Assembly (NCBI RefSeq): GCF_003349955.1
Contig: NZ_QLKQ01000028.1
Location: 1 to 64,000, forward strand
DNA: 64,000 bases
Source: Azospirillum brasilense
GTDB lineage: Bacteria > Pseudomonadota > Alphaproteobacteria > Azospirillales > Azospirillaceae
Direction of reading: 5' to 3'
Under the pieces are notes generated by a model that was not told the origin of the DNA, ran no database searches, and was given only the letters and a program-made list of their open reading frames with translations. Numbering within the stretch: position 1 is the stretch's first letter; every line of letters starts with the position of its first letter. Below are positions 345-4,460 of the stretch, piece by piece. A program made the position numbers and the translations under genes.

Positions 345-3300
345 GTGACATTGCTTCGCACGCCGACCTTGGTCGAAGCCCCGGGCGCCGGCCATCGTTC
401 GTCCGAATCTTCGAACGATGCCCTCTCCTCTTCCCCTTCCTCTCTTCCCGTTCCCGGCGTACTGCGGGGCAGCGCGATCCCGGAACTGCTTCGGGATGAA
501 TTGCTGTCCGACGTCTTCGCGGCCACCGCGCGGGCCATACCGGAGCGGACCGCCATCCTGTTCGACGGGCGCCGCGTCAGCTACGGCGAGCTGGAAGCCC
601 GGGCGAACCGCGTCGCCAACGCGTTGCGCGCGCGCGGCTATGGTCCGGGGAGCTTCGTCGGCCTGTGGATGACGCGGTCGCTCGACCTGCATGTGGCGCT
701 TCTCGGCATCCTGAAGGCCGGCGCTGCCTACCTGCCCTTCGACGCCGACGCGCCCGCCGAGCGCGTGGCGGTCAGCTTGGCCGATTGTTCCGCGCCGGCC
801 ATCCTGGTGGACGCCGTGACGGCATCGAAGGCGGCCGGGCTCGCGGTGCCGGCGCTGCGGCTGGAGGATCTGGCTTCCGATGATGAAAGCGCGCCCGACC
901 TGCGCGCGGACGGCGTCACCCGCGATCATCCGGCCTACGCGATCTACACCTCGGGCTCGACCGGCAAGCCCAAGGGCATTGTCATCAGCCACGCCAACAT
1001 CTGCCACTATCTGCGCGCCGCCAACAGCGTCTATGGGATCAGCCGAGACGACGTCGCCTTCCAGGGCGCCTCGGTGGCCTTCGATCTGTCGCTGGAGGAG
1101 ATCTTCGTCCCATACATGGTGGGCGCGACCCTCTGGGTGGCGAGCCGGCAGGTGCTGGACGAGGCCGACCGGTTGGCCGACGTCCTGAACGACGCGGGGA
1201 TCACGGTGCTGGACACCGTGCCGACCCTGCTCGCCATGCTGCCCAAGGACGTGCCGAGCCTGCGCGTCGTCATCCTGGGCGGCGAGGCCTGCCCGCCAGC
1301 GGTGGCCGCGCGCTGGTGCCGTCCGGGGCGGACCATCTTCAACAGCTATGGCCCGACCGAGGCGACCGTCGTCGCCACGGTGGCCGAGGTGCGCCCGGAC
1401 GAGCCGGTCACCATCGGTCGGCCGATTCCGAACTACAGCTGCTATGTGGTGGACGAGGCGATGGCGCTGGTCGCCCCCGGCACCCAGGGCGAGCTGCTGA
1501 TCGGCGGGCCGGGCGTTGCCCAGGGCTATCTGGGGCGTCCCGACCTGACCGCCGAGAAGTTCATCCGCAACAGCTTCGCCATCCACGGCAACGACCCGCT
1601 GCTCTACCGCTCCGGTGACGCGGTGAGCGTCGATCCGAACGGCAACCTGCTGTTCCATGGCCGCATCGACGATCAGGTGAAGATCCGCGGCTTCCGGCTG
1701 GAGCTGGGCGAGATCGAGGCGAAGCTGACCGATATGGCCGGCGTAAGCCAGGCCACCGTGGTGCTGCGCAACGACAACGGGCTGGACCGGCTGGTCGCCT
1801 TCCTGGTGCCGCAGGCCGGCGCCACGCTGGACAAGACGGCGCTGCGCGACGGCTTGCGCGCCCAACTGCCGAGCTACATGGTGCCGTCGCATTTCGAGCT
1901 GACGGACCGCCTGCCCCGGCTGACGTCCGGCAAGGCCGACCGCAAGGCGCTGCAGGCCACACCACTGACCGACGACACCGGCCCCGGCGAACAGGACGAG
2001 CCGCGGACCCCGACGGAAGCCGCCCTCCTGGAGGCCGCCAAGCGCGTCTTCCCCGGCCAGGCGATCCCGCTGGAAGCCGACTTCTTCATGGATCTGGGCG
2101 GGCATTCGCTCCTTGCCGCACGGTTCGTGTCGGCGGTGCGGGAGACCCGGCATCTCGACGGGCTGACCTTGCAGGACGTCTACGGCGCCCGCAGCCTCCG
2201 CGCCATGGCCGAGCGGTTGGACGCCCGCGCGCCGCGCGGTGGCAACGGCGGCGGAGCCGAACGCAAGGACCGGTCCTTCACGCCGCCCCCCCTGCTCCGC
2301 CGCTTCCTCTGTGGTGCGGCGCAGGCGGCGGCCCTGCCCTTCATCCTGGCGCTGATGACGGCGCAGTGGCTCGGCGTCTTCGTCAGCTACATGCTGCTGT
2401 CCGGCGAGGACGCCAATTTCCTCCAGGAAATCGTCACGCTGCTCGGCGTCTACATGGTCATCAACGCCGCCACGGTGGTGATCGCCGTCGCAGCCAAGTG
2501 GCTGGTCATCGGGCGGACGAAGCCCGGGCGCTACCCGCTGTGGGGCACCTACTATTACCGCTGGTGGCTGGCGCAGCGCTTCATCAGCCTCGTCCATCTG
2601 AAGTGGTTCCAGGGCTCGCCGGTCATGCGGGTCCTCCTGCGCGCGCTCGGCGCCAGGGTGGGCGACGAGGCGCTGATCGGCGAGTTCGAGTCCGGGGCCA
2701 TCGACCTCGTGACCATCGGGGCCGGCGCCTCGATCGGCGGCAAGGTGAAGCTGGCGAACGCCGAGGTGATCGGCAACGAACTGGTCATCGGCGCGGTGGA
2801 GATCGGCGCGGACGCCTATGTCGGCACATCCTGCGTCATCGGCATGGACTCGGTGGTCGGACCCGGCACGGAGCTGGCCGACCTGACCGCCCTGCCCGCC
2901 GGCGCCCGCACCGGCGCCTATGAGCGCTGGGACGGCTCGCCCGCGCGCCGCGTCGGCAGCGTCGACCGGGCGGAGTTGCCCGCCCCGGCAACCGCCGGAC
3001 AGCTGCGCCGCGGGGTGAACGCCGCCTTCTACACGGCGATGCTGCTGGCCCTGCCGCCGATCTCTCTGATGCCGATCTTCCCGGCCTTCTACCTGTTCGA
3101 CAATCTGGACGGGGTTCTGGGGTCCGTGTTCGGCGTCAGCTACCTCTATTACCTGCCGCTGATCGCCTGGCCGACCGCCATGGCGCTGGTCGCGGTGACG
3201 GTCTGCATGATCGCCGCCGTGCGCTGGATCGTCCTGCCGCGCGTCGAGGCCGGCACCTACTCGGTGCACAGCGGCTTTTACCTGCGCAAATGGATGGTGG

Positions 3301-4460
3301 CGCTGTCCACCGAGGTGATGCTGGACACCCTCAGCTCGCTCTACGCCACGGTCTACATGCGGGCGTGGTACCGGCTGATGGGCGCCAAGATCGGCAAGGA
3401 CGCGGAAATCTCCACCAACCTCGCCGGGCGCTACGACCTCGTCGAGATCGGCGAGAAGTGCTTCATCGCCGACGAGGTGGTGCTGGGCGACGAGGACATC
3501 CGCCGCGGCTGGATGTTCCTGAAGCCGGTGAAGACCGAGGCGCGCGTGTTCGTCGGCAACGACGCGGTGGTGCCGGCCGGGGCCAGCATCCCCACCGGCT
3601 CGCTGATCGGCATCAAGTCGAAGCCGCCCGCCAACGAGGCGATGTCCGCCGGGGAGACGTGGTTCGGCAGCCCGCCGATCAAGCTGCCGGTGCGCCAGCG
3701 CTTCGACGGGGTCGGCGCCAACTGGACCTACGAACCGTCCAAGGCCCGGCGCCTGGGCCGCGCGGTGTTCGAGGCCTTCAGCCTGTCGATGCCGACGATG
3801 CTGTTCATCACCTTCGGCACGCTGGCGGTCGAACTGTTCGCCCCGGCCATCCTGGAGCAGCGCTACGGCGCCTTCCTGGCGCAGTTCCTGGGCGTCAGCG
3901 TCGCCATCCCGGTGGCGATGGTGGCGGTGGTCATCCTGGTGAAGTGGCTGCTGATGGGACGCTACACGCCGACCGTGAAGCCGATGTGGTCCTGGTGGGC
4001 CATGAAGACGGAAGCGGTGGCGGTGCTCTACTGGGGCCTCGCCGGCAAGGTGTTGCTGGACCATCTGCGCGGCACGCCGATGCTGCCCTGGGTGCTGCGC
4101 CTGTTCGGCACCAGATTCGGCGAGGGCGTCTTCATGGACACCACCGACATCACGGAGTTCGACTGCGTCTCGGTCGGCGACCACAGCGCGGTGAACGCCC
4201 TGTCTGCCCTCCAGACGCACCTCTACGAGGACCGCGTGATGAAGGTCGGCTGCGTGAAGGTCGGTCGCGGCGTCACCATCGGCGCCGGGTCCACGGTGTT
4301 GTACGACACCAGCGTCGGCGATTACGCCCATCTCGGCCCGCTGACCCTGGTCATGAAGGGCGAGGAGATCCCGGCGCACACGGAATGGGCCGGCGCCCCG
4401 GCGGAGCCGGTGGTCGAAGGCCAGCCCGAGTTGACGGCTCAGTTCAAGAGCGCTGCGTAA
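345..4460 (+). CDS. Pls/PosA-type single-module NRPS with membrane-bound C-terminal region
   Basis: Predicted to activate one amino acid as an adenylate, load it on its own carrier domain and probably join it to more of the same in the membrane-bound C-terminal half, as in epsilon-poly-lysine synthetase relatives. The 1371 residues carry an adenylation domain (about 45-545) with YTSGSTGKPKG, NSYGPTE, YRSGD and a SGKADRK end. A carrier domain follows, with LGGHSLL and pantetheine serine S588. The rest (about 650-1371) alternates hydrophobic segments with three left-handed hexapeptide-repeat stretches, the layout of the 'NRPS terminal domain' family. There is no condensation or thioesterase domain. 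The GTG start at 345 is the first plausible one. The gene stands alone, so no tailoring or export gene suggests the product. Confidence 0.88.
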   Translation: MTLLRTPTLVEAPGAGHRSSESSNDALSSSPSSLPVPGVLRGSAIPELLRDELLSDVFAATARAIPERTAILFDGRRVSYGELEARANRVANALRARGYGPGSFVGLWMTRSLDLHVALLGILKAGAAYLPFDADAPAERVAVSLADCSAPAILVDAVTASKAAGLAVPALRLEDLASDDESAPDLRADGVTRDHPAYAIYTSGSTGKPKGIVISHANICHYLRAANSVYGISRDDVAFQGASVAFDLSLEEIFVPYMVGATLWVASRQVLDEADRLADVLNDAGITVLDTVPTLLAMLPKDVPSLRVVILGGEACPPAVAARWCRPGRTIFNSYGPTEATVVATVAEVRPDEPVTIGRPIPNYSCYVVDEAMALVAPGTQGELLIGGPGVAQGYLGRPDLTAEKFIRNSFAIHGNDPLLYRSGDAVSVDPNGNLLFHGRIDDQVKIRGFRLELGEIEAKLTDMAGVSQATVVLRNDNGLDRLVAFLVPQAGATLDKTALRDGLRAQLPSYMVPSHFELTDRLPRLTSGKADRKALQATPLTDDTGPGEQDEPRTPTEAALLEAAKRVFPGQAIPLEADFFMDLGGHSLLAARFVSAVRETRHLDGLTLQDVYGARSLRAMAERLDARAPRGGNGGGAERKDRSFTPPPLLRRFLCGAAQAAALPFILALMTAQWLGVFVSYMLLSGEDANFLQEIVTLLGVYMVINAATVVIAVAAKWLVIGRTKPGRYPLWGTYYYRWWLAQRFISLVHLKWFQGSPVMRVLLRALGARVGDEALIGEFESGAIDLVTIGAGASIGGKVKLANAEVIGNELVIGAVEIGADAYVGTSCVIGMDSVVGPGTELADLTALPAGARTGAYERWDGSPARRVGSVDRAELPAPATAGQLRRGVNAAFYTAMLLALPPISLMPIFPAFYLFDNLDGVLGSVFGVSYLYYLPLIAWPTAMALVAVTVCMIAAVRWIVLPRVEAGTYSVHSGFYLRKWMVALSTEVMLDTLSSLYATVYMRAWYRLMGAKIGKDAEISTNLAGRYDLVEIGEKCFIADEVVLGDEDIRRGWMFLKPVKTEARVFVGNDAVVPAGASIPTGSLIGIKSKPPANEAMSAGETWFGSPPIKLPVRQRFDGVGANWTYEPSKARRLGRAVFEAFSLSMPTMLFITFGTLAVELFAPAILEQRYGAFLAQFLGVSVAIPVAMVAVVILVKWLLMGRYTPTVKPMWSWWAMKTEAVAVLYWGLAGKVLLDHLRGTPMLPWVLRLFGTRFGEGVFMDTTDITEFDCVSVGDHSAVNALSALQTHLYEDRVMKVGCVKVGRGVTIGAGSTVLYDTSVGDYAHLGPLTLVMKGEEIPAHTEWAGAPAEPVVEGQPELTAQFKSAA

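Follow-up and report, generated by a model that had tools for sequence, protein, structure and literature searches.

The gene at positions 345 to 4460 of a 64,000-nucleotide stretch of Azospirillum brasilense DNA (contig NZ_QLKQ01000028.1 of assembly GCF_003349955.1; hereafter the window) probably encodes a cationic homopolymer synthetase of the 'DLED' branch of the Pls/PosA family, named here by the first letters of its specificity code, which would make a short isopeptide chain of one basic diamino acid. L-Ornithine is our best estimate of that amino acid, at roughly an even chance. L-Lysine is a tentative second choice, and equally tentative is some other basic amino acid, such as diaminobutyrate (Dab), arginine or a derivative.

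Gene and domain architecture

The open reading frame (ORF) runs from a GTG start at 345 to a stop at 4460, with an AAAGG stretch 5′ of the start at 331-335. GC content at codon positions 1, 2 and 3 is 0.675, 0.483 and 0.923, and the ratio of nonsynonymous to synonymous substitution (dN/dS) is 0.23-0.39 between the window gene and seven relatives; these values mark a genuine gene that purifying selection maintains. The NCBIfam model TIGR02353 ('Pls/PosA family non-ribosomal peptide synthetase') matches amino acids (aa) 659-1353, scoring 606.3 bits where the cut-off is 423.1. In a Pfam scan AMP-binding, AMP-binding_C, PP-binding and Hexapep were over their cut-offs and LbH_EIF2B was below its own, whilst no condensation or thioesterase model was among the five families matched in all. 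The synthetase is thus a single adenylation (A) domain and a single carrier domain fused to a Pls/PosA terminal domain. A preliminary description of this DNA, made by eye, had proposed a lone adenylation-thiolation (A-T) module in a Pls-type layout, with hexapeptide repeats and without condensation or thioesterase domains, and Pfam and TIGR02353 bear this out. The features of the protein are as follows.

345..4460, forward strand: Pls/PosA-family synthetase resembling non-ribosomal peptide synthetases (NRPS), 1371 aa (ORF, TIGR02353, dN/dS)
519..1532, forward strand: adenylation domain core (AMP-binding), aa 59-396 (Pfam PF00501, 287 bits)
1710..1934, forward strand: adenylation C-terminal subdomain, aa 456-530, its last residue being the pocket lysine K530 (Pfam PF13193)
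2052..2219, forward strand: carrier (thiolation) domain, aa 570-625 (Pfam PF00550)
2106-2108, forward strand: Ser588 in the LGGHSLL motif of the carrier domain (Ser in 93/93 aligned rows)
2319..4403, forward strand: Pls/PosA terminal (polymerisation) domain, aa 659-1353 (TIGR02353, AlphaFold)

Specificity pocket

In the MAFFT columns of 84 full proteins the pocket consists of D247, L248, E251, D290, I310, G312, S334, V342, V343 and K530, giving the code DLEDIGSVVK. This is identical to the earlier reading by eye. Below we use the position numbers of GrsA, which we take to correspond to these residues. The Asp and Glu expected of a Pls/PosA member at pocket positions 1 and 3 are present (D247 and E251), and the view of an acidic pocket with a cationic diamino-acid homopolymer as the likely product is upheld.

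1083..1097, forward strand: pocket residues D247, L248 and E251 (GrsA 235, 236 and 239; MAFFT columns)
1212..1214, forward strand: pocket residue D290 (GrsA 278), the second acid (MAFFT columns)
1344..1373, forward strand: pocket residues S334, V342 and V343 (GrsA 322, 330 and 331; MAFFT columns)

The 84 proteins are the window protein, those of 8 plasmid loci and 75 from the best 80 of at least 585 loci; L038, L062, L078, L097 and L101 were left out, having no ORF above 900 aa that holds the motif. As relatives were selected by likeness to the window protein, the counts of 55 DLED, 27 PosA-type DMEH, one DAES and one DF code do not describe the whole family. The DLED rows divide into 30 DLEDIGSVVK, 20 DLEDLGTVVK and 5 DLEDIGTVVK; 52 of the 55, the window included, are from Alphaproteobacteria by title or record and three are titled just 'Proteobacteria bacterium'. 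All 14 readable Azospirillum loci, again including the window, carry DLEDIGSVVK (16 loci came from the genome search, of which 2 were masked).

Position 236 is reported to set the chain length of the substrate, with Ala for lysine, Met for ornithine and Phe for Dab or diaminopropionate, and exchange of Met for Ala at this position of PosA raised kcat/KM for lysine nearly tenfold (PMC10522769). Leu is near Met in size, which suggests that Leu236 would suit an ornithine-length side chain better than lysine. The chain-length rule is echoed by our rows, since Phe stands at 236 in three loci that have a diaminobutyrate-type transaminase beside the synthetase (L026, L112 and L108). In L026, a Streptomyces plasmid, genes for a Dab transaminase and an aspartate kinase come after the synthetase; L112, in which the transaminase was identified by tblastn, is a near-copy of this locus.

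Phylogeny within the Pls/PosA family

A first set of trees was built from 55 of 93 rows, for the A domain and the C-terminus separately and with the pocket columns removed. The DLED rows form one clade (A domain, support 98*; C-terminus, 100*), which is joined with 12 PosA rows at 100* in both domains; the PosA-code row L024 (Sphingomonas) is a long branch outside this group. A second set, inferred with a mixture model and accompanied by approximately unbiased (AU) tests, used 28 of 99 rows. Here the best tree of either domain unites DLED with PosA (A domain, support 99*; C-terminus, 30), and the values for DLED by itself are 94 (unstarred) and 100*, respectively. Pls was represented by L025, L115 and L116 (DAESIGTVVK) and by L121 and L122 (DAESIGTVIK) rather than by the full Pls protein. 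A clade of DLED with these five DAES rows was rejected by the AU test (p 4e-7 in the A domain, 3e-12 in the C-terminus), as was one of DLED with the three actinobacterial DAES rows (p 0.0024 and 0.0011). Moreover, the synthetase is 42% identical over its full length to an Acinetobacter baumannii protein whose pocket has the PosA code (L023), and its C-terminal domain is 38-44% identical to 27 PosA-code terminal domains. The preliminary description had expected a place with Pls in the tree: this holds for the wider Pls/PosA family but not for Pls proper, outside which the AU tests put the synthetase; the trees place it beside PosA. Therefore, 'ornithine-like' is a likelier description of the enzyme than 'lysine-like'.

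Terminal domain and proposed mechanism

The C-terminal half of the synthetase is an internally triplicated unit (sequence repeats C1, C2 and C3). Its hydropathy peaks form three pairs, and at the level of secondary structure an AlphaFold model of aa 645-1371 (mean predicted local distance difference test score, pLDDT, 87.6; predicted template modelling score, pTM, 0.88) has three helix pairs with beta-helix strands after each. Amongst the structural matches listed, single beta-helix units did match but no solved structure spanned the whole terminal domain.

2277..2996, forward strand: repeat unit C1, helix pair and hexapeptide beta-helix, aa 645-884 (C1-C2 E 3.7e-18, C1-C3 E 5.4e-19)
2997..3716, forward strand: repeat unit C2, aa 885-1124 (internal repeat, secondary structure)
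3717..4436, forward strand: repeat unit C3 with the QTHLYED loop, aa 1125-1364 (C2-C3 E 1.3e-5, secondary structure)
4218..4220, forward strand: H1292, the sole invariant histidine of the C-terminal domain (His in 93/93 aligned rows)

We propose that the A domain would activate a basic amino acid with ATP, with D247 holding the alpha-amine and E251 together with D290 holding the side-chain amine. The activated residue would then be loaded onto Ser588 of the carrier domain, and the membrane-anchored C-terminal domain would form the bond between the side-chain amine of each residue and the carboxyl group of its successor. Each of the three fused repeats resembles a single subunit of a hexapeptide-repeat acyltransferase of the trimeric kind. 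Judging from its conservation, H1292, in the single repeat retaining a histidine, is the likely catalytic base.

Substrate and alternative readings

We favour ornithine because of Leu236, the relation to PosA and the arrangement of an Aquabacter locus (L072) with the same code, DLEDIGSVVK. In this locus the synthetase is followed, after a gap of 37 nt, by a gene for a basic-amino-acid antiporter, which overlaps by 4 nt a gene for a 4′-phosphopantetheinyl transferase (PPTase). The best model of the antiporter is the arginine-ornithine model TIGR03810 (510 bits, below the cut-off of 591), and it is over the cut-off of the broader TIGR00905 (493 against 409); the PPTase scores 66 bits with the HetI model, below cut-off. 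Moreover, no gene for Dab or beta-lysine synthesis was seen amongst the genes visible downstream in the window or in the annotated, incomplete gene lists of two relatives, as would be expected if the substrate is a common metabolite.

That the enzyme is strictly an epsilon-poly-L-lysine synthetase is possible but doubtful. The pocket of the solved Pls A domain (7WEW, alignment read by eye) is DAESIGTVVK, the code also found in L025, L115 and L116; the window pocket differs from it at just 3 of 10 positions and has I299, G301, V330, V331 and K517 in common with it. In addition, a genotype of ApnA that has both E239 and D278, DVEDIGGVEK, incorporates lysine as well as arginine (Table 2, PMC5311044). 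However, the clade of DLED with DAES rows is rejected in both domains, and Leu236 replaces the Ala that leaves room for lysine. On the AU tests a strict poly-lysine synthetase was ranked behind ornithine. The acids at 239 and 278 had at first been taken as lysine-like; both are indeed present, but they do not single out lysine or ornithine, since they also occur in arginine-incorporating ApnA (PMC5311044), and the Pls pocket, as read by eye, has Ser278.

The same two acids, together with I299-G301, would fit activation of arginine or of an arginine-derived diamino acid to give a polymer not yet described, since the arginine-incorporating ApnA A1 genotypes DVEDIGAIEK and DVEDIGAVEK contain them (Table 2, PMC5311044). 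A Bdellovibrionales member of the family is also reported to be modestly active with arginine (PMC10522769), and the L072 antiporter has an arginine-ornithine model as its best. We nonetheless consider an arginine substrate improbable. D278 is not the source of the arginine specificity of ApnA, as genotype DVESIGAIEK, with Ser278, also gives arginine (PMC5311044). Furthermore, Leu236 gives the side chain less space than Val does in ApnA, and the sister group is the ornithine-preferring PosA. Guanidine is, moreover, a poor nucleophile for isopeptide bond formation. In letters the window code differs from Pls by 3, from ApnA by 3 or 4, from PosA by 5 and from the Dab types by 6; given these distances and the presence of E239 and D278 in arginine-incorporating ApnA, the code alone does not settle the substrate. 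It is also improbable that the enzyme forms no polymer and that its C-terminus instead works as an ordinary hexapeptide-repeat acyltransferase, passing a single activated basic residue to a lipid, hopanoid or sugar of the envelope: the likeness of this domain to the 27 PosA-code terminal domains speaks against it, as PosA and Pls make free polymers, and no conserved acceptor-synthesis gene was seen beside the synthetase amongst the neighbours, which are annotated in part.

Several points weigh against the ornithine homopolymer that we prefer. DLEDIGSVVK is closer in letters to Pls and to arginine-type ApnA than to PosA. Under the mixture model, support for DLED with PosA is just 30 in the C-terminus, and the 94 for DLED alone in the A domain is unstarred. 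The antiporter stands beside the synthetase in one locus (L072) among all loci compared, whose flank lengths vary, and the window's own genome has no match to TIGR00905. Polymerisation is attributed by analogy, from family membership; to our knowledge it has been shown for no DLED member, and we know of no proven product for the branch.

Distribution and gene neighbourhood

The synthetase is found over cut-off in 24 of 25 Azospirillum genomes, its own included, and in 9 of 289 genomes sampled across the class, amongst them its own and one other Azospirillum. Six of the 7 class hits outside the genus are readable: 2 DAESIGTVIK, 1 DFEHSGTCSK and 3 DLED, of which L117 is a near-copy of L053. The five best matches in plasmid records are all from Azospirillum (79-81% amino-acid identity). 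In the one Azospirillum genome without a match (G010), fumarase and pseudouridine synthase genes adjoin (L132 10278-13224); both are kept, so that what is absent is the synthetase rather than the block as a whole.

4699..6333, forward strand: class I fumarate hydratase, which usually follows the synthetase in the genus (TIGR00723 above its cut-off, equivalog models of the whole protein under theirs)

Fumarase adjoins the synthetase in 15 of the 16 loci from the genome search of the genus (L001 and L005-L019, with the exception of L011) and also in L020, L021, L027, L028 and L029; some of these loci come from identical records. It probably plays no part and gives no hint of the substrate. The contig, in a genome of 7.14 Mb, begins at base 1 of the window, so the gene upstream of the synthetase is out of sight in this genome. 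In three Azospirillum loci an Lrp-type regulator lies 5′ of the synthetase, Lrp being the best model and none over cut-off. Further downstream, at 8010-10623, three genes lie together: a small ORF in which CxxCxxxC motifs of ferredoxin type were seen by eye, a histidine kinase gene (8398-9915, forward strand) and a gene for a NarL-like response regulator (9892-10623, reverse strand). They may form a sensing unit; of the NCBIfam matches listed, none attained its cut-off.

Across the DLED loci, a gene of one PPTase cluster adjoins the synthetase in six (Pfam on L034), and three PF01648 genes lie elsewhere in the window's genome. In Hyphomicrobiales an enoyl-reductase-type short-chain dehydrogenase/reductase (SDR) gene lies upstream, within 4.4 kb, in 29 of the 55 DLED rows and chorismate synthase in 15 of the 55; other neighbours are DnaJ, RibBA and histidine phosphatase genes (Pfam on representatives). 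These look like housekeeping genes and are uninformative on the substrate. We also searched the DLED loci by tblastn with 13 proteins from other loci (Dab transaminases, an aspartate kinase, peptidases, transporters and transferases). No adjacent substrate-synthesis gene emerged from this search, which did not cover lysine aminomutase or ornithine and arginine enzymes: it returned the L072 genes, the PPTase cluster and weak matches, namely a 24-27% transaminase 3-8 kb off in L041, L061, L065 and L066 and a 32% major facilitator superfamily (MFS) protein about 7 kb off in L045. In L051, an uncultured Rhizobiales bacterium, a gene for an HMW1C-like protein N-glucosyltransferase (12158-13969; 275 bits, below cut-off) follows 4 nt after the synthetase.

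Other synthetase loci in the comparison have arrangements of their own. On the Skermanella rosea plasmid pSR-1 (L108:5370-15046) ectB, for a Dab transaminase, lies directly 5′ of a Pls/PosA synthetase with the code DFECLSVVTK, and a hypothetical gene, an S41 peptidase gene and a porin gene lie 3′; this is likely a poly-diaminobutyrate locus in the family of Azospirillum. Two genomes of one alphaproteobacterial genus have a synthetase with the near-Pls code DAESIGTVIK (L121:883-7750 and L122:7809-14154), preceded in the same order by an M23 peptidase and a methyltransferase gene. A synthetase with the unusual code DFEHSGTCSK (L119:6230-10183) occurs in a 1.8 Mb alphaproteobacterial genome (G100).

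In four Methylobacterium loci (L056, L059, L064 and L104) and one of Rhodoblastus (L052) the synthetase is followed within 300 nt, on the same strand, by a gene that belongs to one cluster. The L059 member (12334-13527), the one examined with Pfam, is assigned to GGDEF (diguanylate cyclase), a possible tie to biofilm control. Near-fixation of the synthetase in Azospirillum, together with this GGDEF-cluster gene in the four Methylobacterium loci, raises the unlikely prospect that the DLED branch makes a new cationic polymer (for example of arginine, of an arginine-derived diamino acid, or of ornithine bound in a different pocket) and that this polymer has a constant physiological function in Alphaproteobacteria of plants and soil, for instance in surface charge or attachment, and not one in antibiosis.

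Comparison with known systems

Azospirillum includes crop inoculants, and with the branch carried by 24 of the 25 genomes examined, the genus would lend itself to studying how cationic isopeptide polymers serve the cell. Such polymers are antimicrobial: poly-lysine is used to preserve food (PMC8117764), and delta-poly-ornithine is antifungal (PMC10522769). The product had initially been thought to be without report in organisms of this kind. This calls for correction, as Pls-like enzymes of Alphaproteobacteria are already in print (PMC10522769, PMC10508160, PMC11964084); among methanotroph metagenome-assembled genomes (MAGs), for example, clusters for non-alpha poly-amino acids (NAPAA) are commoner in Beijerinckiaceae and Methylocystaceae than in Methylococcaceae (PMC11964084). 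We found no Pls/PosA enzyme of Azospirillum in print; the open-access PMC papers containing both 'NAPAA' and 'Azospirillum' are, by their titles, on other bacteria. As far as our literature search shows, the Azospirillum member, its presence across the genus, the relation to PosA and the single invariant histidine of the triplicated C-terminus are new.

The closest characterised relative is PosA, the delta-poly-L-ornithine synthetase of A. baumannii (PDB 8G95-8G98; PMC10522769). The two are in sister clades and have in common the layout of A, T and terminal domains, with Asp as the first pocket residue and Glu as the third. However, the PosA pocket, DMEHNGTVSK, differs from that of the window at 5 of 10 positions (Met to Leu at 236, His to Asp at 278, Asn to Ile at 299, Thr to Ser at 322 and Ser to Val at 331), so that Ser322 and Val331 stand where PosA has Thr322 and Ser331 at the side-chain amine; Ser331 is important in PosA. 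Pls (A domain, PDB 7WEW) is alike in family and layout but has Ala236, Ser278 and Thr322 in place of Leu236, Asp278 and Ser322. ApnA belongs to the normal NRPS. Its A1 domain (anabaenopeptin) shares E239, D278 and I299-G301 with the window but has Val236 and a code ending in AIEK or AVEK (PMC5311044).

The window gene is nearest to sequences described before. DLEDIGTV(T/V/I)K was singled out in 2023 as a distinct code of unknown substrate in Archaea, Rhizobia, Methylobacterium and others (PMC10522769), and DLedLgTVvK was given, with no substrate named, as the NAPAA code of a new Bosea genome and of the seven compared with it, all eight alike (PMC10508160). The passages on these codes in the two papers do not name ornithine for either. 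No characterised product of the branch was found in the literature searched, and the window gene is a further member of it. These codes and that of the window are essentially one branch, within which the window has Ser for Thr322 and, compared with Bosea, Ile for Leu299.

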